Source: Verrucomicrobiales bacterium
Lineage (GTDB): Bacteria > Verrucomicrobiota > Verrucomicrobiia > Verrucomicrobiales > V1-33
Assembly: GCA_018003315.1 (NCBI GenBank)
Contig: JAGNEJ010000001.1
Span: forward strand, 124,001 to 188,000
DNA: 64,000 bases
Direction: 5' to 3'
Shown here: in pieces, positions 10,392 through 40,278 of the stretch
Layout: every line of letters starts with the position of its first letter
Numbering within the stretch: the stretch's first letter is position 1
Translations under genes and position numbers: made by a program
The notes under the pieces: model-generated
The model's database searches: none
Seen by the model: the letters and a program-made list of their open reading frames with translations, nothing else
What the model was told of the DNA's origin: nothing

Positions 10392-11291
10392 ATGCCTCCA
10401 TTGCCACGCCTCGGTTCGAAACGCCTCTTTTTGGTCGTCCTTTTCTGGGGCTTCCTTTTCCGGGCATTCGGACCGGCGGCTCCGTTGAAAATCAATGGCT
10501 CCACCACGGTGAATCTCCCGGTGGCCGAGGCGGCGGAGGTGTTGCGTGCGGAAAAACGGATGGCGATTCAGGTGGACACCCAGGGCGGGAGCAGCGGAGG
10601 CATTTCCATGCTGGGGGAAGGGCTGGTGCAGATCGGAATGATTTCCAAACACGTCTCGGAGGAAGATCGGAAGAAATTTCCGCAATGCGACTACCGCGAG
10701 ATTCGCATCGGAGAGGACGCCGTGGCGATGATCGTGAGCCGGGACGTGTGGGACGGCGGCGTGAAATCCTTGAGCAAGGAACAGGCGAAGGGGATCTACG
10801 AGGGGCGGATCAAAAACTGGAAGGAACTGGGCGGTCCGAACCAGCGCATCGCCTTCTTCAACAAGGAACCCGGACGCGGCACCTGGGAGGTGTTTGTCCA
10901 CTGGCTTTACGGCCATTCCAAAGACGCACCGCCTGTGAATTTTCCCGAGGTGGGCGGCAACGAGGAGACCCGCAACAAGGTTGCCGGCACGAAGGGGGCG
11001 CTTTCGCAGCTTTCGTCATCGTGGGCGGACGGAAAGAAGGTCTTCGCGCTTTCGATCAAAGGGGACGACGGCAGGGAAACAGCCCCTACCAATGAAAACA
11101 TAGCCACCGGAGCCTATGCCTTGCGGCGTCCGTTGTTTCTCCTGACAAACGGAGAACCGTCGGGGGATGCGAAAACGCTGGTGGATTTCATGCTGAGCGC
11201 ACGGGGGCAGCAACTGGTGGCGAAGCACGGCTACCTGAAACTTGCTGAATTGAAGGCACCGGAAGGAAATCAAGCACCTCCGCTCCGGTAA
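10392..11291 (+). CDS. pstS: PstS-family periplasmic substrate-binding protein
   Basis: This 299-residue protein has an N-terminal signal (hydrophobic stretch LFLVVLFWGFLFRAFG) and the PBP_like/PstS fold. Recognisable blocks are INGSTTVNLPVAEA (oxyanion loop), VDTQGGSSGGISMLGEG and a C-terminal VDFMLSARGQQLVAKHGYL. It would bind phosphate or a similar oxyanion and deliver it to the membrane proteins at 12377-14180. The block that usually reads GSGT in this family reads GRGT here (KEPGRGTWEVF), which may alter the ligand pocket. It is the first gene of a five-gene plus-strand cluster with a rhodanese inserted after it. Confidence 0.88.
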   Translation: MPPLPRLGSKRLFLVVLFWGFLFRAFGPAAPLKINGSTTVNLPVAEAAEVLRAEKRMAIQVDTQGGSSGGISMLGEGLVQIGMISKHVSEEDRKKFPQCDYREIRIGEDAVAMIVSRDVWDGGVKSLSKEQAKGIYEGRIKNWKELGGPNQRIAFFNKEPGRGTWEVFVHWLYGHSKDAPPVNFPEVGGNEETRNKVAGTKGALSQLSSSWADGKKVFALSIKGDDGRETAPTNENIATGAYALRRPLFLLTNGEPSGDAKTLVDFMLSARGQQLVAKHGYLKLAELKAPEGNQAPPLR

Positions 11292-11362
11292 CCAGCCCGC
11301 ACCGGGCGCGATGCGACCGGACACACCCTGCTTCACCCAACGCCAACCCCATCTCGAAATTC

Positions 11363-12301
11363 ATGAAGACATCCTGGCTTGCCACGTTCCTCGGTGCACT
11401 GCTCCCATGCGCCGCCCCCGCAGACATCGCGGTCATTTCCCCGGCGGCAGCCAGCAAACTGATCGCCCAATCCGACGCCAGGGCGCGCCCCGTGGTCCTG
11501 GATACGCGGGGTGGATACAAGGACTACTTCCGCGGGCACCTGCCCACGGCGCACCATCTGGAGTTTGACACCCTGCGCGGAACGGAAAACGCCGTGCCCG
11601 TCCAGTACCTGCCCGCCGACCTGACAATACCGCTTCTTGTCAGGGCCGGGGTGGACAAAAACCGATTGCACCTCATCTATGCCACCGGGGATGTGCTGCC
11701 GAACGACGAGATTCTGAGTGCCAGCATGGTCGCCTACGTCCTGGAGAAATACGGCGTGGAGAACATCCGCATCGTGGACGGCGGTCTGGCTGAATGGAAA
11801 AAGCAGGGCCTTCCAGTCACTCAGGATTACTTTGGCAATCCCGCAGGCAGGCTGCCTGACAAGGGTCATCCGGAAATCGCAGCCAGCATCAAGGAGGTGC
11901 AGTCCCATGTGGGCAAGGCGGGAAACGTCCTGGTGGATGCCCGGCCGGTCAATGAATTCCGGGGTGAGGACGACATCTGGCTGCGCAAAGGCCATATCCC
12001 GGGCGCCATCAGCTTTCACTGGGCCCGACTGATGGAGGCGGACAACACGCACAAATTCAAACCGTTCGCGCAAGTGAAGGCGGAACTGGAAGCCGCTGGC
12101 ATCACAAGGGACAAGAGCATCATCTGCTACTGCGGCACCTCCAGGGAGGGCAGCCTGCTGCGGTTTTACCTGAAGCATGTGGCGGGCTACCCCGACGTGC
12201 GCCTCTACGAAGGCGCTTGGAAGGAATACGTCTGGCTCAACAACAAATCCCTCCCGGCGGAGCAGGGCGGCGAGCCTGCTGGCCACCCGGCGCCAAAATG
12301 A
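11363..12301 (+). CDS. Exported two-domain rhodanese (sulfurtransferase)
   Basis: 312 residues with a signal peptide (MKTSWLATFLGALLPCAAPA). Two rhodanese domains are visible. The first (about 30-155: VVLDTRGGYKDYFRGHLPTA ... IRIVDGGLAEWKKQGLP) has no catalytic Cys at the expected loop. The second (about 170-300: VLVDARPVNEFRGEDD ... CYCGTSREGSLLRFYL) has the active-site Cys in YCGTSREGS. Tandem rhodaneses normally keep one active domain, as here. It would act in the periplasm, transferring sulfane sulfur from thiosulfate or a persulfide. Its place between pstS and pstC is unusual and suggests a link to the transported anion or to sulfur stress; that is inference. Confidence 0.9.
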   Translation: MKTSWLATFLGALLPCAAPADIAVISPAAASKLIAQSDARARPVVLDTRGGYKDYFRGHLPTAHHLEFDTLRGTENAVPVQYLPADLTIPLLVRAGVDKNRLHLIYATGDVLPNDEILSASMVAYVLEKYGVENIRIVDGGLAEWKKQGLPVTQDYFGNPAGRLPDKGHPEIAASIKEVQSHVGKAGNVLVDARPVNEFRGEDDIWLRKGHIPGAISFHWARLMEADNTHKFKPFAQVKAELEAAGITRDKSIICYCGTSREGSLLRFYLKHVAGYPDVRLYEGAWKEYVWLNNKSLPAEQGGEPAGHPAPK

Positions 12302-12376
12302 CGGGCTTCATTCCGCTGCGCCGCCGGGCGCTCCGCAAAGGCGGATACAGTTTTCCCACGATCAGCGAGGAACGGA

Positions 12377-13327
12377 ATGCAGCATCAGCAATCCGACCGC
12401 ACACCTTCACAAAACAATGGCAACGCCGTCCGCTCGGTGCGGCGCTGGAGTGCGACGGCGATTTTGAGCTGGGGCTTTTCGTTGTTTGCGGCCGGCGCAT
12501 TCGGTGCGGTGGCGGTGACGCTGCTGGTGCAGAGCTGGCCCGCCTGGAAACACGAAGGGGCGAACTTCCTCACCGGCACCCAGTGGTTTTACCGGCAGGA
12601 TTCATTTGGCGCAGCCCCGATGATTTTCGGAAGCATCGCCGTGGCGCTGGTGGCGCTGGCGGCGGCAGCTCCGGTGGGCATCGGTGCGGCCGTCTTTGCG
12701 GTGGAATTCCTGCCTCCCCGGCTGCGGCTGGGGTTGAAGGTTGGCGTCGAGCTGCTGGCCGGCATTCCCTCCGTGGTCTACGGGCTGCTGGGCATCCTCA
12801 TCCTGCGCGACTGGGTTTATGAAGCCCTGGCGGCATTTGATCCCCTGAGCGGTGACACCCTGCTCACCGCCGGAGTGCTGCTGGCCGTGATGATCCTGCC
12901 GACGATCATGACGCTGTCGGACGACGCGCTGCGCGGCGTGCCGTCAAGCCAGCGCATGGCCGCCCGCGGTCTGGGGCTCACTGCTACGGAGACGGTGTTC
13001 AGCGTAAGCCTGCCGCAGGCTTTCCCAGGGCTGCTTGCCGCCGTGCTCCTCGCCCTGGGCCGGGCGCTTGGGGAAATGATCGCCGTGTTCCTTGTGGTGG
13101 GGCGTCAGGACAATCAATGGCCGGTGTCGTTCCTGTCGCTGCGTCCGCTGGCGGAAGCCGGCCAAACGCTCGCCAGCAAGCTCGGCAGTGCGGAAACAAA
13201 CATCGCCTACGGGGCTCCGCTGCATTGGGGTGCGATGATGGGGCTCGCCCTGGTTCTGCTGGGGCTGGTTTTGTTCGTTGTCCTGGCGGCCACCTGGCTG
13301 CGGCGGCTCCGGCAGCAGCACCTCTGA
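12377..13327 (+). CDS. pstC: Phosphate-type ABC transporter permease PstC
   Basis: 316 residues with about six membrane segments, starting at residue 28 (ATAILSWGFSLFAAGAFGAV). The binding-protein-dependent permease signature is visible as MAARGLGLTATETVFSVSLP followed by GLLAAVLLALGRALGEMIAV, and the PstC-typical stretch GIPSVVYGLLGILIL is present. It forms the transmembrane channel with PstA (13329-14180). It follows the rhodanese gene by 75 bases and precedes pstA by one base. Confidence 0.92.
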   Translation: MQHQQSDRTPSQNNGNAVRSVRRWSATAILSWGFSLFAAGAFGAVAVTLLVQSWPAWKHEGANFLTGTQWFYRQDSFGAAPMIFGSIAVALVALAAAAPVGIGAAVFAVEFLPPRLRLGLKVGVELLAGIPSVVYGLLGILILRDWVYEALAAFDPLSGDTLLTAGVLLAVMILPTIMTLSDDALRGVPSSQRMAARGLGLTATETVFSVSLPQAFPGLLAAVLLALGRALGEMIAVFLVVGRQDNQWPVSFLSLRPLAEAGQTLASKLGSAETNIAYGAPLHWGAMMGLALVLLGLVLFVVLAATWLRRLRQQHL

Positions 13328-13328
13328 C

Positions 13329-14180
13329 ATGAGACGCCGCCTCATCCATCACACTTTTCGGGCAGTCACGGGCCTGTGCGCGGCGGCGGCCTGCCTCGTC
13401 TTTGGCGGCATCGTGTGGGCCATTGTCCGGCGCGGCTGGCCCGCGGTGAGCTGGAGTTTTCTTACGGAACAGATCAAACGGGTCGGCGCGGAAGGCGGGA
13501 TTTTTTACAATCTGGTGGGCACCGGCATCCTGGTCGCAACCGCACTGGTCGTCTGCATGCCCTTCGCGCTGGGGCTGGCCCTGCTGCACGGCATCTACCT
13601 GAAGGACAGCCGCCTGCGCGGAGCGACAACCGTGCTGCTGCACCTGCTCAACGGCGTGCCCAGCATCGTCTTTGGCATTGCGGGCATGATGGTGTTTGTC
13701 CATTGGCTTGGCTGGGGAAAAAGCTGGCTCAGCGGCGGCATCCTCCTCGGTTTCATGATCCTGCCAACGGTCACCGTGGCGCTGGCGGAACGCATGGACC
13801 GCCTGCCCTGGCGCTACGTGGAGGCCGCCGCGGGGCTGGGACTGCGCCGTTCGCAGATCATCCGCAGCGTCATCCTGCCGCAAAGCATGGGCGGACTCGT
13901 CACCGGTTCCCTGCTGGGCCTCGCCCGGGCGGCCGGTGAGACCGCACCCATCATGTTCACTGCGACCATTTTTTCCGGCGCCACCTTCCCCGACGGCATC
14001 CGGGAAAATCCGGTGCTTTCGCTTCCCTATCATATTTTCATCCTCGCGCAGGACTCATTTGATCCGGACGCAGGGCGGAACTTGTGGGGCGCTGCCCTCA
14101 CCCTGCTGGCATTGGTGGTGGTGCTCTCCGCCACCGCACTGCCCGCGCGGCTCAAATTCCACGAGGAGGCCCGGTTCTGA
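13329..14180 (+). CDS. pstA: Phosphate-type ABC transporter permease PstA
   Basis: The start at 13329 lies one base after the pstC stop (TGACATG), which argues for translational coupling; an in-frame start 51 bases upstream would overlap pstC and add no family sequence. The 283-residue protein has six predicted membrane spans. Its coupling loop is YVEAAAGLGLRRSQIIRSVI followed by LPQSMGGLVTGSLLGLARAA and GETAPIMFTATIF, which is characteristic of PstA. The stop overlaps the pstB start by one base (TGATG). Confidence 0.93.
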   Translation: MRRRLIHHTFRAVTGLCAAAACLVFGGIVWAIVRRGWPAVSWSFLTEQIKRVGAEGGIFYNLVGTGILVATALVVCMPFALGLALLHGIYLKDSRLRGATTVLLHLLNGVPSIVFGIAGMMVFVHWLGWGKSWLSGGILLGFMILPTVTVALAERMDRLPWRYVEAAAGLGLRRSQIIRSVILPQSMGGLVTGSLLGLARAAGETAPIMFTATIFSGATFPDGIRENPVLSLPYHIFILAQDSFDPDAGRNLWGAALTLLALVVVLSATALPARLKFHEEARF

Positions 14181-14920
14181 TGAACGAAGCCGTGCTGCAG
14201 ATCCGAAACCTTTCGGTGGTGGCCGGGTCGCAATGGTTGCTGCGCGAAGTGACGTTCGACATTCCACGGGGCGGAGTTTTCGGCATCATGGGACCTTCAG
14301 GAGCCGGGAAAAGCACGCTGCTCAAGTGCCTCAACCGTCTGGCGGAACTCTCCGGCCTGCGGGTCAGCGGCGAGGTGCTGTTCCATGGACGGAACCTCCG
14401 CGGCGAAGATCCCGACACCCTCCGCAGCCGCATCGGCATTCTGTTCCAGCAGCCGGTGGTCTTCCCCAAAAGCATCCTCGCCAACGTCCTCTTCGGCGTC
14501 AAGCACCTCGGGAAGGCACCCCGCCGTGAGCACCAAGCCATCGCGCAGCGGGCGCTGCAGGAAGCGGCGCTATGGGACGAAGTCAAAGACCGCCTCCCCA
14601 CCCCGGCGCTGAAACTTTCGGTCGGCCAGCAGCAGCGGCTCTGCCTGGCCCGCACCCTCGCCACCGATCCGGAGGTCATCCTCATGGATGAGCCGACCAG
14701 CGCCCTGGATCCCCGCAGCACTGCCGCGGTGGAAGAGTTGATCCGGCAGATCTCCGCCTCCCGCACCATCGTTCTGGTCACGCACCATCTCCAACAAGCC
14801 CGCCGCATTTGCCGGCATCTGGCATTCCTTGCTGTCCGGGATGGCTCCGGGCAATGCCTTGCCCACGGAACCACGGAGGAAACATTGGACAATCCCGTGG
14901 CGGCACCGTTTGTCGCCTAA
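14180..14920 (+). CDS. pstB: Phosphate-type ABC transporter ATP-binding protein PstB
   Basis: 246 residues starting at the ATG that overlaps the pstA stop. Walker A GPSGAGKST, Q-loop region GILFQQPVVFPKS, ABC signature LSVGQQQRL, Walker B VILMDEPTSALD and switch His in VLVTHHLQQARR are all present. It energises import through PstCA. It is about the usual length for PstB (roughly 250). No phoU or phoBR gene follows; instead it converges with a small ArsR-type regulator 18 bases away. Confidence 0.92.
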   Translation: MNEAVLQIRNLSVVAGSQWLLREVTFDIPRGGVFGIMGPSGAGKSTLLKCLNRLAELSGLRVSGEVLFHGRNLRGEDPDTLRSRIGILFQQPVVFPKSILANVLFGVKHLGKAPRREHQAIAQRALQEAALWDEVKDRLPTPALKLSVGQQQRLCLARTLATDPEVILMDEPTSALDPRSTAAVEELIRQISASRTIVLVTHHLQQARRICRHLAFLAVRDGSGQCLAHGTTEETLDNPVAAPFVA

Positions 14921-14938
14921 CCTCTAACCTCCCCGGAA

Positions 14939-15262
14939 TCAGCCACCGCCGAGCCGGAACGAACAGCATCCCAGTTCCAGCACGCCGTGGTTTCTGGCCA
15001 GGGCGTCGGTGATCCCGCTGGAAAGGCTGTAAATTCGCTGTTGGGCGATGGCTTTCATCTCTGCGAGCCCGGCATCCTTCAGCATCTTCAGGTGGCGGGA
15101 GGTGGTGTAGAGCGTCAGGCCCGTCTCCGCCGCCAGCGCGGAAACCGCCCGGGGTCCGGCGGCCAGTGCCCGCACGATGTCCATGCGCGCCGGATCGGCC
15201 AGCGCCCGCAGCATCGGAACGCAATCGCGCAGGGGATCGGTTGGTTTCTTGCGGGCGGCCAT
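14939..15262 (-). CDS. ArsR-family winged-helix regulator with a C-terminal Cys pair
   Basis: This 107-residue protein has the ArsR/SmtB winged helix: LRALADPARMDIVRALAAG (about 18-36), then VSALAAETGLTLYTTSRHLK for the helix-turn-helix and KAIAQQRIYSLSSG for the wing. The last residues read VLELGCCSFRLGG, so two adjacent cysteines sit near the C-terminus and could bind a soft metal or metalloid; the classical ArsR CVC site is not seen. It converges on pstB and may regulate the pst/rhodanese operon or act elsewhere. Its own promoter would lie in 15263-15337. Confidence 0.85.
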   Translation of the reverse strand: MAARKKPTDPLRDCVPMLRALADPARMDIVRALAAGPRAVSALAAETGLTLYTTSRHLKMLKDAGLAEMKAIAQQRIYSLSSGITDALARNHGVLELGCCSFRLGGG

Positions 15263-20756: not shown

Positions 20757-20797
20757 GAAAAAGAAAACGGTCCGGCACACCCATGGCGGCCGGACCG
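20757..20797 (-). terminator. Rho-independent terminator of the Cys-rich protein gene
   Basis: On the minus strand a 9-bp GC-rich stem (20789-20797 with 20768-20776, core CGGTCCGG/CCGGACCG, 12-base loop) is followed by TTTTCTTTTT (20767-20758). It sits 27 bases after the stop of the gene at 20824-21042 and just before the tatD start. Confidence 0.75.
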
Positions 20798-20823: not shown

Positions 20824-21042
20824 TTACTGCTTTTTGTTTTTGCAGCAGCCGGCAGTGCCTGCCTTGTCACAGCATTTTTTATCCTTGTTCTTGCAGCAGC
20901 CGGAGCCGCCCGCTTTGGAACAGCATTTTTCGGTGCCGGCATTGGCGCAGCATTTCTGTTCCGTGGTGGTGGTGCAGTTGCAAAGCAGTGCCATTGCACC
21001 GACGCCGCAAACGGTAATGAGGATGGATTTGAGCAAATTCAT
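20824..21042 (-). CDS. Small exported protein with cysteine-pair repeats (metallothionein-like)
   Basis: 72 residues: a hydrophobic export signal (LLKSILITVCGVGAMALLCN), then five CC pairs in about 45 residues. The C-terminal part is two near-identical 17-residue units, KCCSKAGGSGCCKNKDK and KCCDKAGTAGCCKNKKQ, preceded by a shorter KCCANAGTE. The remaining residues are almost all Lys, Gly, Ala, Thr, Ser and Asn. Ten paired Cys in a small polar chain suggest thiolate metal binding or a disulfide-laced surface peptide. The sequence LLCNC after the hydrophobic core resembles a lipobox but lacks the usual small residue at -1, so lipidation is uncertain. It has its own terminator. I do not recognise a named family. 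Confidence 0.75.
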   Translation of the reverse strand: MNLLKSILITVCGVGAMALLCNCTTTTEQKCCANAGTEKCCSKAGGSGCCKNKDKKCCDKAGTAGCCKNKKQ

Positions 21043-21094
21043 GGTGCGGCAGTCCTACCTGATGGACGCAGGTCTGTCAACGAATGGAACGCAG

Positions 21095-34026: not shown

Positions 34027-34584
34027 CTACTTGCCGCCGGACTTTTCCTTGCCGGTCTTTTCCTTGCCGTGGTCGTGGTCTTTGTGGTCCCCCTCCTCGT
34101 GGTGGTCGCAGGTGCAGGCATATTCCGCGTGCTCACAGGTGGGGCACTTGCTCATGTTCAGATTGAACCGCGCATTGACCGCCTTGGCCTTGGCACTGCT
34201 TTTGATCTGCACCACCGTCGGGTAGTCATTGCCGTCCGGCACTGTCTTGTCGGAGACGAGCTTGTCGCCGTCCTTGGTGAACGCCAGCTTGGTGGGCTTG
34301 CTGCGTTCTCCCAGCGTGGCGGTCACCACCTGATCGCCAGGGGGCACCACTTTGTTCTCATCGTCCACAAAACGGATTTCCACTTTTTTGTCCTTGTTGA
34401 CAAAAAATTCCACATGCGGCTCAACGCTGGTGATCAGTTTTCCTCCGGTGGGTCCGGCCTTGGCTGCGTGGTCGTGGTCGTGTTCCGCGGCCTCTTTTTT
34501 GGCCGGGGCCTGCTTTTCATCCGCCTGACAGGGAACGAGGCTCAGGGCCAGGCCCAGGAATGCGAGTTTCATCAATGATTTCAT
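34027..34584 (-). CDS. Exported His-rich metal-binding protein of the efflux operon
   Basis: 185 residues with a signal peptide (MKSLMKLAFLGLALSLVPCQ). Metal-ligand clusters lie at both ends: EHDHDHAAKAG just after the signal, and a C-terminal tail with KCPTCEHAEYACTCDHHEEG followed by DHKDHDHGKEK. The middle (about 45-135) looks like a small beta domain (HVEFFVNKDKKVEIRFVDD). It is the last gene of the RND operon, 71 bases after the pump, and is plausibly a periplasmic metal chaperone or sponge that feeds the pump. It is not CusF. Confidence 0.75.
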   Translation of the reverse strand: MKSLMKLAFLGLALSLVPCQADEKQAPAKKEAAEHDHDHAAKAGPTGGKLITSVEPHVEFFVNKDKKVEIRFVDDENKVVPPGDQVVTATLGERSKPTKLAFTKDGDKLVSDKTVPDGNDYPTVVQIKSSAKAKAVNARFNLNMSKCPTCEHAEYACTCDHHEEGDHKDHDHGKEKTGKEKSGGK

Positions 34585-34625
34585 GGATTTTGGTGTTTGG
34601 GTTATGGGTGCTTTTTTTTGTTATG

Positions 34626-34647
34626 CCCGCACCAATGGTGGTGCGGG
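34626..34647 (-). other. Intercistronic hairpin between pump and His-rich gene
   Basis: CCCGCACCA (34626-34634) pairs perfectly with TGGTGCGGG (34639-34647) around ATGG. In the operon mRNA it is followed by an A-tract rather than a U-tract, so it is not a standard terminator. It could stabilise the upstream message or set the ratio of the last gene. Confidence 0.45.
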
Positions 34648-34655
34648 AAATGGGT

Positions 34656-37600
34656 TTAGTGCGAGGCTGGCGACTCCAGCTCGATGGAGCGGGCGGCGGC
34701 TTTTCTGCCGAAGGTGTAAAACACCGTGGGCGTCACTCCCAGGCCCAGCAGGGTGCTGGTGACGAGCCCGCCCACGATCACCACCGCCACGGGATGGAGG
34801 ATTTCCTTGCCCGGCTGGTCTGCCGCCAGCAGCAAGGGAACCAGCCCGATCCCGGCGGAAAGTGCAGTCATCAGCACGGGAACCAGCCGTTCCTTGGTGC
34901 CCCGGATCACCATGGCTTTGGTGAAACCTTCGCCTTCATGCTGCATGAGGTGGAGATAGTGGCTAATGAGCATGATGCTGTTCCGGGCGGCGACGCCAGC
35001 CACCGCGATGAATCCGACCAGCGTGGCAATGCTGATGTTGTTGATCTGTTGCCGGGTGAGGAGCAGCCCGCCGATCAATGCCAGGGGAATGTCACACAGG
35101 ACCTGCAGGGAGAAGAAGGTGGAGCGGAAATACCCGAAGAGCAGAAATGCGATGACCACCAGCACCACGCCGCTGAGTATGGCAATGCGCTGCGAAGCCT
35201 CGCGCTGCGCAACAAATTCACCCTCATAGCTCACGAAATAGCCCTCTGGAAATTTCACCTTGGCGGTCACCAATTCCTGGAGCTGGCGGACGCTTTCGCC
35301 GACATTGCGCGACGTGGGCTTGATGGCCACCACGTAGCGGCGCTGGCCGTTTTCGCGGTTGATCACGTTCGGTCCCTTGGCCTCGCGGACATCCGCCACC
35401 AGCGACACCGCCACGCGCCGCCCCGCTTCATTTTCCACGGGCAGGGTGCTGATTTTTTCCGGTGAATCCCGCCATTCATGCGGCAGCCGCATCACCAGAT
35501 TCAGGCTGCGCTGGCCATCCCGGAGTTCCGCCAGATGTTCCCCGCCGATGAGCTTGGAAAGCTGCTCGTTGAGGTGGCCGGGCGCAATGCCATAGGCCCT
35601 GGCCTGGTCACGATCGGCTTCGATGCGCAATTGGGGAATGGTGGACTGCTGGTCGAGTTTGGCGTCTTCGAAGCCGGGAATGGTTTTTGCAAGGCTTTGG
35701 ATTTGCGCCCCCAGTTCGGTTAATTTTCCCAGGTCAGGACCGAAAATCTTGATCGCCACCGGCGCTGCGACGCCGCTGAGCATGTGGCCGATCCGGTCCG
35801 CCAGCGGACCCGTCAGGGCGCTGAAGGTCCCGGGGACCATCCGGACTTTCTGGCGGATCTCCTCCAGAATTTCCTTGCGGCTGCGGGCCTTTCCTCCGGA
35901 CGTGTCGGTGGCGGTCTGAAAATCCACGTCAAATTCCGCGGTGGAAACTGGCACGACATGGTCGCCGCGTTCCGCCCGCCCGATGCGGCGGCCCACCTGC
36001 TTCACTTCCGGGACGGAGAGAATCTGCCGTTCCACCACGTCGCTGATTTGATTCATTTCATCCAGCGAGGTGCCGGGCGCGGAAGTGGTGGAGACCAGGG
36101 CGGTTTCCTCACGGAAAGCGGGGAGGAAGTCTTTCCCCATTTCTCCGTAGAGACTGAATGCGGCGGCGGCAAGAATGCCAACCAGGGCCAGCAGCGCCAG
36201 CGGCTGGTTCAAGCCGAAGCGCAAGACCAGGTGCTCCAGCATCCACTTCATGCCCCGCGTCAGTCGTCCGTCCTTGTGGGCGTGCCCCTGCTTGGGCCGC
36301 AGCAGGAAGGAGCAGAGAACGGGGATGGCGGCCAGGGAAACCACAAACGAGGCGATCATCGAGATGATCGTCGCGATGGCGATGGGACCGAACAGCCGAC
36401 CTTCCACTCCGGTGAGCCCGAGCAGCGGAAGGAATACCAGGATGATCAGCAGCGTGGCATAAAGAATGGAGTTGCGCACCTCACCCGAGGCGCGGGCGAT
36501 CACCTGGAGCCGCGGATGGGGTGCGTCCAGAGCCGCGTTTTCATTGAGCCGCCGGAAGACGTTTTCCACGTCCACGATGGCATCGTCCACCACCATTCCG
36601 ATGGCGACGGCCAGGCCGCCCAGGGTCATGCTGTTCACGCTGATGTCCAACCACTGGAAAGTCAGCAGGGTGATGGAGAAGCTCAACGGCATGGCCATGA
36701 GCGTGATGAAGGTGGTGCGGAAGTTCAGCAGGAACAGAAAGATGACGATGGTGACCATGATGGCTCCGTCCCGGATCGCCTCCTTCAGGTTGTCCATGGC
36801 GTGGTCGATGAAGTCCTTCTGCTGGAAGAGCATCCGGGGCTCCACGCCTTCCGGCAGCGTGGCCTGGAGTTCCTTCAGGGCGGCCTTGATTTGTTCGGTC
36901 AGCTTCGAGGTGTCGAATCCCGGCGCTTTGGTCACGGACATGATGACACCGGGCGTTTGCAGGATTTCGCCGCTGGCGGTCCGCAATCCGATCCCCGCGT
37001 CACCCCGCATGGGTTCGATCCCCCACTCGACTTTTGCCACATCCCCGATGGAAACCGGACGGTCATTGACGATTTTGATGACCGTGCTGGCAATTTCCGA
37101 AAGATCGGTGGTCATGGACAGGTTGCGCACCATGATTTCGGTGGAACCGGCATCGATGAAACCGCCCGTTGTGGTGCTGGCGGATTCCCGAGCGGCCTCC
37201 TCCAGCTCATCGTGCGAAACCCCCAGCGCCTGCATGCGCAGCGGGTCGGGCTGAATTTCCACCTGCTTGATGCCTCCGCCCATGTTGAGGATTTCCGCGA
37301 TGCCCGGAATGGTCTGCAGCCGTCGGCGCACGGTCCAGTCGGCCAGGGAGCGGATTTCCCGCGGCGGAAGTTTCTCATCCCTGCTGGAGATGCCCACCAG
37401 GAGGATTTCCCCCATGAGCGACGCCACCGGCGTCATGAAGGGCTGCACGCCTTCCGGAAGCTGTTCGCGGACGCCCTGCATCCGTTCCTGGACCATGGTG
37501 CGGGCCTTGTAAATGTCCGTCCCCCAGGCAAACTCGGCGAAGACCAGCGAGAGGGCGATGTCGGAATTCGACCGCAGCCGGGTCAGTCCGCCCACGCCCA

Positions 37601-37820
37601 TCAGGGAGCTTTCGATCTGCTGCGTCACCCGGGTTTCCACTTCCTCCGGTGCCAGCCCCGGCGCTTCTGTCAGGATAATGACCGTCGGCTTGGTCAGGTC
37701 AGGCAGGACTTCCACCGGCAGGCTTTGCACCGCCCGATACCCCAGGAACAGCAGCAGCAGGGAAATGCCCACCACCAGTGTCCGGTTCGCCAGCGACCAT
37801 TTGATCAGCTTGTTCAGCAT
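34656..37820 (-). CDS. Heavy-metal efflux RND transporter (CusA/CzcA family)
   Basis: 1054 residues, the normal RND length. The N-terminus (WSLANRTLVVGISLLLLFLG) is the first membrane helix, followed by a periplasmic porter domain (VETRVTQQIESSLMGVGGLT), a helix bundle near 360-510 with GGLAVAIGMVVDDAIVDVEN (about residue 400-416), and the second half (EREASQ-type periplasmic loop, then IAILSGVVLVVIAFLLFGYF). The helix-4 motif resembles the HME-RND group but matches neither textbook CzcA (DFGxIVDGAV) nor CusA (AIGAMVDAAI), so the metal cannot be assigned. It works with the adaptor at 37824-39053 and the outer-membrane factor at 39079-40278; the stop of the adaptor is followed at 3 bases by this start. 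Confidence 0.93.
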   Translation of the reverse strand: MLNKLIKWSLANRTLVVGISLLLLFLGYRAVQSLPVEVLPDLTKPTVIILTEAPGLAPEEVETRVTQQIESSLMGVGGLTRLRSNSDIALSLVFAEFAWGTDIYKARTMVQERMQGVREQLPEGVQPFMTPVASLMGEILLVGISSRDEKLPPREIRSLADWTVRRRLQTIPGIAEILNMGGGIKQVEIQPDPLRMQALGVSHDELEEAARESASTTTGGFIDAGSTEIMVRNLSMTTDLSEIASTVIKIVNDRPVSIGDVAKVEWGIEPMRGDAGIGLRTASGEILQTPGVIMSVTKAPGFDTSKLTEQIKAALKELQATLPEGVEPRMLFQQKDFIDHAMDNLKEAIRDGAIMVTIVIFLFLLNFRTTFITLMAMPLSFSITLLTFQWLDISVNSMTLGGLAVAIGMVVDDAIVDVENVFRRLNENAALDAPHPRLQVIARASGEVRNSILYATLLIILVFLPLLGLTGVEGRLFGPIAIATIISMIASFVVSLAAIPVLCSFLLRPKQGHAHKDGRLTRGMKWMLEHLVLRFGLNQPLALLALVGILAAAAFSLYGEMGKDFLPAFREETALVSTTSAPGTSLDEMNQISDVVERQILSVPEVKQVGRRIGRAERGDHVVPVSTAEFDVDFQTATDTSGGKARSRKEILEEIRQKVRMVPGTFSALTGPLADRIGHMLSGVAAPVAIKIFGPDLGKLTELGAQIQSLAKTIPGFEDAKLDQQSTIPQLRIEADRDQARAYGIAPGHLNEQLSKLIGGEHLAELRDGQRSLNLVMRLPHEWRDSPEKISTLPVENEAGRRVAVSLVADVREAKGPNVINRENGQRRYVVAIKPTSRNVGESVRQLQELVTAKVKFPEGYFVSYEGEFVAQREASQRIAILSGVVLVVIAFLLFGYFRSTFFSLQVLCDIPLALIGGLLLTRQQINNISIATLVGFIAVAGVAARNSIMLISHYLHLMQHEGEGFTKAMVIRGTKERLVPVLMTALSAGIGLVPLLLAADQPGKEILHPVAVVIVGGLVTSTLLGLGVTPTVFYTFGRKAAARSIELESPASH

Positions 37821-37823
37821 GGG

Positions 37824-39053
37824 TCAGGAAATTTGAGGTTTGACGCCGGCGTCCCCCGCATCGGTTCCGGACTTCCTGCGGAAGACCAGGGAAAGCACCA
37901 GCAAGAGGCCCAGGACGCCGCTGGTCAGCTTCCAGAGCCTGCCGCCGCCGGACTCGTGTTCGTGCTCATGGTCGTGGGCGCCGCCGGCCGCGGCTTTTTC
38001 CGCTTCCCGGTTTTTTTTCTGCTCAGGAGTCATCTCGGATCCGTCCTCGTTGTGCTCGTGGCCGTGTGCCGCATCCAGCGCCGCTTTGAGCGACATGGTT
38101 CCGCCTCCGGCAAACGCCAGAGAATAGGCTCCCTGCACGACGATGCTGTCTCCCAGCAGCAGGCCGCTTTGAATCTCCGCAAAGCGGTCGTTCACCTGCC
38201 CCACCACCACGGGCGTCTTCACGAATCCATACAGGATTTCCGTGTCAGGGAGATCCTTGTCGGCCTTCAGCTTCTTTTCACGGGCATCCAGCATCCCCAA
38301 ATCCTCCGCATACACATAGCGGTTCGCGGAGTCGCCCTGCACCGCGGAACGCGGCACCACCATGACCCCTTCCCGCTGGCTGAGTACGATGGAAAACTCC
38401 GCCCTCATGCCGGGCCGGATGGTCAATTGAGGATTGGGCAGCTTGAAAATGGCGTCGATGGTTCCGCTTTCCCGGTCGGCTTCCGTTCCGAAACGCAGCA
38501 ATTCCCCGTCGAATTTTTCGTTTGGCAGGGCGGAGATTCGGATGTGGGCGGTGGCTCCGGGTTTGATTCCCCCCGCGAGATGCTCCGGCACATGGGCGAT
38601 GGCATGGACCTCGCTGAGGTCGGTGACTTCCATCAGCACCGTTTCGGGCTCCAATGGTTCGCCCAGCGCCACGGCAGCCTTGGTGACGATTCCAACTCCT
38701 GGAGAGAGCAAGGAAACAATGGGCGGCGGATCGCCAGGCTGGCGGCTTTCCAGGCGCGCCACTTCCTGGCCTGCCTGCACGGTGTCGCCCAGTGCAGCTT
38801 TGAGTTCCACGATGCGCCCAGGGATGCGGCTGCTCACTCCGCTGCGTTTCCCCGGAATCGCCTCCACCCGCCCCAGCGAGAAGATCGTTTCCTCAAATTC
38901 GGTCTCTTCGACCTCCATGGTCTCGATCCGCAGGTTTTTCACTCCGGTGGCATCGAGAATCACCGTGCTGGAGGCCCGCTTGTCATCGGCGGACCGGACG
39001 GCTGACGCCAGCAGCAGCAGGCAGGAAAGGGTGTAGTTACAGGTTTTGTGCAT
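37824..39053 (-). CDS. RND efflux periplasmic adaptor with a C-terminal membrane anchor
   Basis: The start at 39053 (MHKTCNYTLSCLLLLASAVR) gives a signal peptide and 409 residues. Adaptor landmarks: the lipoyl/barrel-sandwich half SGVSSRIPGRIVELKAALGD, a short hairpin, and beta-barrel segments such as AHVPEHLAGGIKPGATAHIR and LTIRPGMRAEFSIVL. The last 80 residues are unusual: His/Glu-rich stretches (HGHEHNEDGSE and GGAHDHEHEHE) and then a hydrophobic helix (LTSGVLGLLLVLSLVFRRK). The protein may therefore be anchored through its C-terminus with a metal-binding patch at the membrane face. It lies between the outer-membrane factor and pump genes. Confidence 0.9.
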   Translation of the reverse strand: MHKTCNYTLSCLLLLASAVRSADDKRASSTVILDATGVKNLRIETMEVEETEFEETIFSLGRVEAIPGKRSGVSSRIPGRIVELKAALGDTVQAGQEVARLESRQPGDPPPIVSLLSPGVGIVTKAAVALGEPLEPETVLMEVTDLSEVHAIAHVPEHLAGGIKPGATAHIRISALPNEKFDGELLRFGTEADRESGTIDAIFKLPNPQLTIRPGMRAEFSIVLSQREGVMVVPRSAVQGDSANRYVYAEDLGMLDAREKKLKADKDLPDTEILYGFVKTPVVVGQVNDRFAEIQSGLLLGDSIVVQGAYSLAFAGGGTMSLKAALDAAHGHEHNEDGSEMTPEQKKNREAEKAAAGGAHDHEHEHESGGGRLWKLTSGVLGLLLVLSLVFRRKSGTDAGDAGVKPQIS

Positions 39054-39078
39054 GGAAAATAGATGGCTGAAATTTTTG

Positions 39079-40278
39079 CTAGTTGCCCAGAGCGGCCTCG
39101 CTGCGGACGCGGGCCAGGTGGAAATCACGCAGGGCATTGAGCCGTGCCGTTTGCAGGGAAAGCCGCCGGTCGCGGATCCGCAGCACTTCGGTCAGAGTGG
39201 ACTGCCCGGCCCCGTAGGATTTGCGGTAGCGCTCCTCGAGCGCTGCGGTTTTGGGCAGGAGGTCGTCGCTCTGCCGCAGGATCGAGGCGCTGATTTCCAT
39301 CTCCCTTTGCGCCGCAGCCGCTTCATTGCGGATCCGCAGCGCCAGGGCACCGGCTTCTTTTTCCGCCCGCTGGGCGGCTGCCCTGGCCGACTGGATGTTC
39401 CCTTCGTTCTGATTCCACAGCGGCAGCGGCAGGGAAAATTTGAGCCCGATGAACGTGTCTGCCTCCAGGCCGTCGGGCGCGTCCTCCATCCGCTCCACCT
39501 CGGCGGCCAGACCAATGGAGAGGTCTTCCCATTTCCCGGCCTGCGCCAGCTTCACAGCCTGGCTGGCCGCTTCTGCTTTCGCGGTGGCCATTTGATAATC
39601 CGGACGCTTTTCCAGTCTGGGTTCCTGCCGGCCGGTTGATTTCACCTCCGGAAGTTCTCCGGAAATTTCCAGCGTTCTGCCGGAATTCATTCCCAGCAGG
39701 GGGCGCAGTTCTCCAGTCAGCGCGGCGATTTCGGCATCCGTCTGCAGCAAACCCAATTCCAGTTGGGCTGCTTCCAATTCCACCTGACCCGCTTCCAGCG
39801 TGGACCCTTCGCCGGCCGCCGCGAGTTTCGTCACCAGGGTGGCGATTTCCTTTCCGTTCGTGATTTGTTTTTGTTCCAGCACCCTGCGGGCCTGCAGCGC
39901 CAGGATTTTCACGGCCAGCGTCCTGACATCCGTGGAGATTTTCCGCTCCGCCTCGCGCACTTCCGCCTCCGCTGCGGCAAGTTCCGCACGGGAAACCGCC
40001 TTCTCCAGGCGCAGCCGGCTGGTCAGGGGAAGTTTCTGCATGACACCGATGCCTGCGGACATTTCGCGGCCGCGCACATTGGGTTTCCATTCGGTTTCAA
40101 CTTCGGGATTGGCATACCGCCCGGCCTGCAGCAGGCGTCCCTGCGCCTCGGCGATGGTCATCCGGGCGGCCTCCAGGTCGGCATTGTGACGCAGGGCATG
40201 CGCCGTCACCGTCTGGAGCGTGAGAACCTCCGCAGCAGCGGGAAGGGTTAGGGAAAGGAGGCAAAGAAGTCGGTACAT
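39079..40278 (-). CDS. TolC-family outer-membrane efflux protein
   Basis: 399 residues with a signal peptide (MYRLLCLLSLTLPAAAEVLT). The chain is the two-repeat alpha-barrel/beta-barrel of the outer-membrane efflux proteins: HALRHNADLEAARMTIAEAQ in the first repeat and RPDYQMATAKAEAASQAVKL in the second, with coiled-coil-rich Ala/Glu/Gln helices throughout and FSLPLPLWNQNEGNI as the second equatorial strand. It forms the exit duct for the RND complex, corresponding to CusC/CzcC. The next gene, the adaptor, starts 25 bases downstream. Confidence 0.93.
   Translation of the reverse strand: MYRLLCLLSLTLPAAAEVLTLQTVTAHALRHNADLEAARMTIAEAQGRLLQAGRYANPEVETEWKPNVRGREMSAGIGVMQKLPLTSRLRLEKAVSRAELAAAEAEVREAERKISTDVRTLAVKILALQARRVLEQKQITNGKEIATLVTKLAAAGEGSTLEAGQVELEAAQLELGLLQTDAEIAALTGELRPLLGMNSGRTLEISGELPEVKSTGRQEPRLEKRPDYQMATAKAEAASQAVKLAQAGKWEDLSIGLAAEVERMEDAPDGLEADTFIGLKFSLPLPLWNQNEGNIQSARAAAQRAEKEAGALALRIRNEAAAAQREMEISASILRQSDDLLPKTAALEERYRKSYGAGQSTLTEVLRIRDRRLSLQTARLNALRDFHLARVRSEAALGN

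Follow-up and report, generated by a model that had tools for sequence, protein, structure and literature searches.

P0001, a gene of 72 codons on the minus strand of the window (the whole 64,000-nucleotide stretch of DNA that was analysed), encodes a small, predicted exported protein built around paired cysteines, for which we see about an even chance that it is a lipid-anchored, extracytoplasmic metal-thiolate buffer of metallothionein-like type. On this proposal a Sec/lipoprotein signal would carry the protein over the inner membrane, after which a lipid anchor would probably keep it at the outer side of a membrane. Its mature part, some 50 residues long and with lysines beside five CC pairs at even spacing, would be expected to lack structure until wrapped round soft metal ions, with Cu(I), Zn, Cd, Hg and Ni as the candidates to be held in metal-thiolate clusters. 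Metal could thereby be buffered at the membrane, ahead of efflux, possibly with induction by the metal itself. The metal reading is favoured indirectly, by the Cys and Lys composition of the protein and by CC lipoproteins of similar appearance that are encoded in cnrYXH-like metal-sensing operons of other genomes of the order.

The gene runs from an ATG at 21042 to a TAA at 20824 (20824..21042, minus strand, as for all features of the gene given below), is present in one copy in the host genome and has the full translation MNLLKSILITVCGVGAMALLCNCTTTTEQKCCANAGTEKCCSKAGGSGCCKNKDKKCCDKAGTAGCCKNKKQ. From this translation, a predicted export signal of residues 1-22 (MNLLKSILITVCGVGAMALLCN; 20977..21042), similar to the signal of the homologue P0002 described below, is followed by a candidate lipid-modified cysteine, Cys23 (20974..20976), within a degenerate lipobox of LCNC. 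Next come a half unit of KCCANAGTE with one CC pair (20929..20955), repeat unit 1 (KCCSKAGGSGCCKNKDK; 20878..20928) and repeat unit 2 (KCCDKAGTAGCCKNKKQ; 20827..20877), the latter two with two CC pairs each. The initial annotation had described two near-perfect 17-residue repeats behind a shorter copy; the shorter copy is present and both units fit KCCxKAGxxGCCKNKxx, but with an identity of 12/17 the wording was slightly generous. The two units differ at nine codons, four of them synonymously. As the annotation had also counted, ten cysteines (of the 13 in P0001) lie in five CC pairs. After Cys23 there are 10 Cys in 49 residues, for which five separate pairs would be expected by chance with p ~8e-5. 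The mature 50 residues hold 11 Cys (22%) and 11 Lys (22%) with zero aromatic, His or aliphatic residues, every Cys except the candidate lipid Cys is in a CC pair, and CXC and CXXC are absent from this mature part.

An export signal with a lipobox-like LLCNC had been proposed. The signal was found, but the lipobox is the weaker part, as the Asn at -1 of LCNC places it outside the strict pattern [LVI][ASTVI][GAS]C. The same position of the homologue P0002 reads LSSC, which is canonical, while another CC lipoprotein of the order has LSNC. Given the canonical lipobox of this homologue, attachment of P0001 to lipid at Cys23 is likely despite the degenerate motif.

This homologue (59 aa, four CC pairs, MKSIILSLCILGTAALSSCQSTPAGDDCCKTGGSCCKTAPKKQCCDKAGTADCCSKKKH) was found in G001, the sole other searched genome classed in the genus of P0001, with a BLASTP E value of 3e-11. 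Across the 16 codons of the shared C-terminus, seven codons differ synonymously and four change the residue, with 2, 2 and 10 differences at codon positions 1, 2 and 3, respectively. None of 2000 shuffles in which the cysteine positions were preserved scored as high as the two mature regions do with each other. The number and spacing of the repeats differ between the two proteins. That the differences lie mostly at the third codon position indicates that the protein is under selection, and P0001 is very probably a real gene. A spurious ORF might be suspected from its small size, its near-unique sequence and the ORFs in other frames that overlap it, but it is hardly credible in view of the same-genus homologue, the codon-position bias, the outcome of the shuffles and a terminator of its own.

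This intrinsic terminator lies between P0001 and the downstream tatD gene (20758..20797, minus strand; stem 20768-20797, U tract 20758-20767). Its folding energy of -25.9 kcal/mol (z -3.7) was matched by 0/200 shuffles, which bears out the terminator of the initial annotation, and it was not listed by a simple terminator scan. A possible own promoter was seen by inspection at 21052..21080 (minus strand), consisting of an exact TTGACA (21075-21080), a 17-nt spacer and a weak TAGGAC (21052-21057); it was not reported by a consensus promoter scan. Upstream of P0001 is an ORF of 2814 aa whose stop codon is 52 bp away, while tatD is on the same strand as P0001. The arrangement of a Cys-rich ORF, a terminator and tatD on one strand would suit a cysteine-sensing leader peptide whose translation sets terminator read-through into tatD. 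This is very improbable for an ORF of 72 aa with an export signal and under selection as a protein, the more so as tatD is unrelated to cysteine metabolism. In addition, the gene next to the homologue in G001 (polysaccharide deacetylase-like, as read from its sequence) points in the opposite direction, so the pairing with tatD is not kept in that genome and a role as attenuator becomes unlikely. With no codirectional gene following the G001 copy, the attenuator idea was rejected.

Database searches placed P0001 in no described family. No Pfam family was matched up to an E value of 10, metallothionein models included, and neither NCBIfam nor PHROGs provided a match, which at family level agrees with the earlier statement that the protein resembles no known metallothionein. 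Nothing matching P0001 was detected among plasmid and phage records. A scan of genome contigs was without result when P0001 was used alone, and with the alignment of P0001 and P0002 it detected only the G001 contig. A two-sequence profile run against 387 genomes of the order gave just weak matches beyond G001, to which a three-sequence profile run against 388 genomes of the phylum added little, again with only weak matches besides G001. As no more than 15 candidates were scored per genome in these searches of the order and phylum, some members may have been missed. As far as seen from these searches, the family proper is confined to one genus; apart from the G001 homologue, the hundreds of genomes searched gave just one borderline candidate (from genome G084). 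The relatives for which a search of the phylum had been suggested thus amount to the G001 homologue and otherwise to weak profile matches. The suggestion of a new small lipoprotein family is supported by the lack of a family match and by the G001 homologue, which is under selection at the protein level.

Among solved structures (PDB) no significant match to P0001 was found, the sole match being a cysteine-rich conotoxin homologue (phmmer E 0.045), taken as an effect of cysteine composition. This match, expected from composition, and the even number of Cys in the repeats could be read in favour of a disulfide-locked secreted peptide, antimicrobial or signalling, whose fold is fixed by its cysteines. 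Such a peptide is improbable here: the mature part is missing a hydrophobic core, P0001 and its homologue differ in how many repeats they have and in the spacing, the signal of that homologue is of lipoprotein type rather than one for release, and processing, immunity or export genes were not seen beside P0001.

In composition P0001 agrees with a metallothionein, being small and Cys-rich, with CC motifs and 0 aromatic residues in the mature 50 aa. The cysteines of metallothioneins are usually placed as CC, CXC or CXXC (PMC6981760). Peptides of the XCCX type have been studied with Cd, Pb, Ni and Zn, where thiolate is the primary site, and CC-containing peptides were very efficient in Ni binding (PMC8028610). 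It should be noted, against a metal buffer, that the extracytoplasmic space is oxidising and the free CC pairs of P0001 may therefore not stay reduced.

The surroundings of the gene also count against a metal buffer. Neither P0001 in the window nor the G001 homologue has a metal gene next to it, and P0001 is not in a cnrYXH-like operon, its neighbours being tatD and the gene for the 2814-aa protein. A cnr regulator elsewhere in the genome was considered and rejected, as no CnrX-like sensor gene was found in the assembly, which is about 96% complete. An operon for a CusA/CzcA-type RND metal efflux system (outer membrane factor, adaptor and pump; 34027-40278, minus strand), followed by a gene for an exported, His-rich protein of 185 aa that contains Cys motifs, is situated 13 kb from P0001; as three such pumps in the genome scored above the cut-off, this proximity is weak support for a role in metal handling. 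Elsewhere in the window (10392-15262), genes reading as a phosphate ABC transporter (substrate-binding protein, two permeases and ATPase) are followed by a convergent gene for an ArsR/SmtB-family regulator (NF033788).

The metal reading draws on similar lipoproteins of related genomes. The weak match in G084, which belongs to a different family of the same order, is a lipoprotein of 62 aa that has three CC pairs and is encoded directly after three overlapping genes for an anti-sigma-like protein, a periplasmic sensor and an ECF sigma factor, an order which we take to be that of cnrYXH. This locus was reached without searching for cnr. Within the family to which P0001's own genome belongs, G005 has a cnrYXH-like operon whose first gene, 34 bp before the cnrY-like (anti-sigma-like) gene, encodes a lipoprotein of 63 aa and five CC pairs, and a near-identical protein is encoded at a CnrX-like gene in G008. 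A profile of four CnrX-like sensors matched the solved structures of NccX (E 5e-9) and CnrX (E ~1e-6). When the G084 sensor was used for searching, 30 cnrYXH-like loci were retrieved, in 17 of which (L015-L022, L025, L027, L029, L032, L033, L037, L039, L041 and L042) the sigma factor gene is followed by that of another type of lipoprotein, ~100 aa long and rich in Cys and His. This frequency indicates that cnrYXH-like regulators are regularly accompanied by exported cysteine lipoproteins. The ~100-aa proteins show weak zinc-ribbon similarity and apparently form an uncurated family. G001 also has a cnrYXH-like operon, flanked by genes for Cys-containing exported proteins.

In the CnrX-like sensors encoded at L046 (4305-4811), L044 (3387-3866) and L007 (2363-2842), invariant cysteines were observed at positions 73, 77 and 115 of P0006 (alignment A3), which suggests cysteine-based metal sensing, unlike the metal site of CnrX, which is composed of His, Glu and Met. 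A larger CC-rich exported protein of about 130 aa, with a non-lipoprotein signal, is conserved between two genomes of one genus (L003, 1300-1689; L057, 1501-1902), where its gene adjoins one with a CxxCH sequence of cytochrome type.

Common to the CC lipoproteins is an architecture of signal, lipobox and 3-5 CC pairs mostly 6-8 residues apart in a Lys-rich, aromatic-poor chain. With cysteine positions fixed, the G084 protein was matched in its similarity to the P0001 family by 3/500 and 42/2000 shuffles, which is borderline, whereas the G005 protein was equalled by 468/500 and 1423/2000. By such cysteine-preserving shuffles the proteins from G005, G023 and G045 have no similarity to this family beyond the cysteine pattern, and the idea of one homologous family of all CC lipoproteins found no support. 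The tie between P0001 and the cnr-linked lipoproteins is hence one of architecture, and function is carried over between look-alikes rather than proven homologues, a further point that counts against the metal buffer. The shared architecture may have arisen by convergence, or the sequences may have diverged too quickly for a common origin to show. A wider proposal, that bacteria of this order (read as Verrucomicrobiales) repeatedly evolve tiny lipid-anchored, CC-repeat extracytoplasmic metallothioneins, either de novo or through very rapid divergence and often under an ECF sigma factor and CnrX-like sensor, as a class undescribed so far, is conceivable but doubtful.

One of the look-alikes points away from metal. 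The 66-aa CC-pair lipoprotein of G045 (C48; L056, 890-1692), which carries the LSNC lipobox, adjoins a gene for a regulator recognised by eye as Rrf2-type and resembling NsrR; this is a better fit to redox or NO stress, so that metal is not the sole possible theme of the CC lipoproteins. It provides an argument for the main rival explanation, a thiol redox sink outside the cytoplasm, in which vicinal CC pairs, able to make and break disulfides, would cycle to scavenge oxidants, NO or electrophiles with metal binding only incidental. This is considered unlikely for P0001: the cnr-linked look-alikes indicate metal, the Lys-flanked, aromatic-free composition is of metallothionein type and inspection revealed no thiol reductase gene beside P0001.

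The best-known bacterial metallothioneins, such as SmtA and MymT, are cytosolic, and a thiol peptide that is built from repeats and anchored to a membrane on the extracytoplasmic side would, if true, mean metal buffering at another site and by another design, in an order that also holds Akkermansia. The lipoproteins linked to cnrYXH predict an inducing stimulus, which makes the reading directly testable. P0001 also illustrates how low-complexity cysteine proteins slip past homology searches, and the wider group of exported cysteine lipoproteins with a link to cnr may be a more valuable lead than P0001 itself.

In comparison with known systems, P0001 resembles the metallothioneins SmtA/BmtA and MymT in being small, Cys-rich, Lys-rich and aromatic-poor, and in being expected to fold round metal. 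It differs from them in giving no match to a Pfam metallothionein model and in having only tandem CC pairs, the mature part lacking both CXC and His; SmtA/BmtA and MymT, in their cytosolic location, are also without a lipoprotein signal. The cnr-linked lipoproteins of G005, G008 and G084 share with P0001 a signal with a lipobox, which is degenerate in P0001, and CC pairs mostly 6-8 residues apart, with mature tails of 42-45 residues and 3-5 CC pairs, but their sequence likeness to it is absent (G005) or borderline (G084). The systems adjoining these look-alikes correspond to CnrYXH/NccYXH, as their sensor matches the NccX and CnrX structures, whereas P0001 is not located in one. With the Csp1-type copper storage proteins, P0001 would have export and cysteine-based metal storage in common, if it does store metal. 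Csp1 has a Tat signal and is a rigid four-helix bundle (PMC7558416), whereas P0001 has about 50 mature residues, is built from repeats and carries a lipoprotein-like signal. The open-access papers searched contained no description of exported, periplasmic or Verrucomicrobia metallothioneins, nor of CC-repeat lipoproteins that are exported, and P0001 apparently represents an undescribed, genus-restricted and exported variant of the metallothionein-like peptides.
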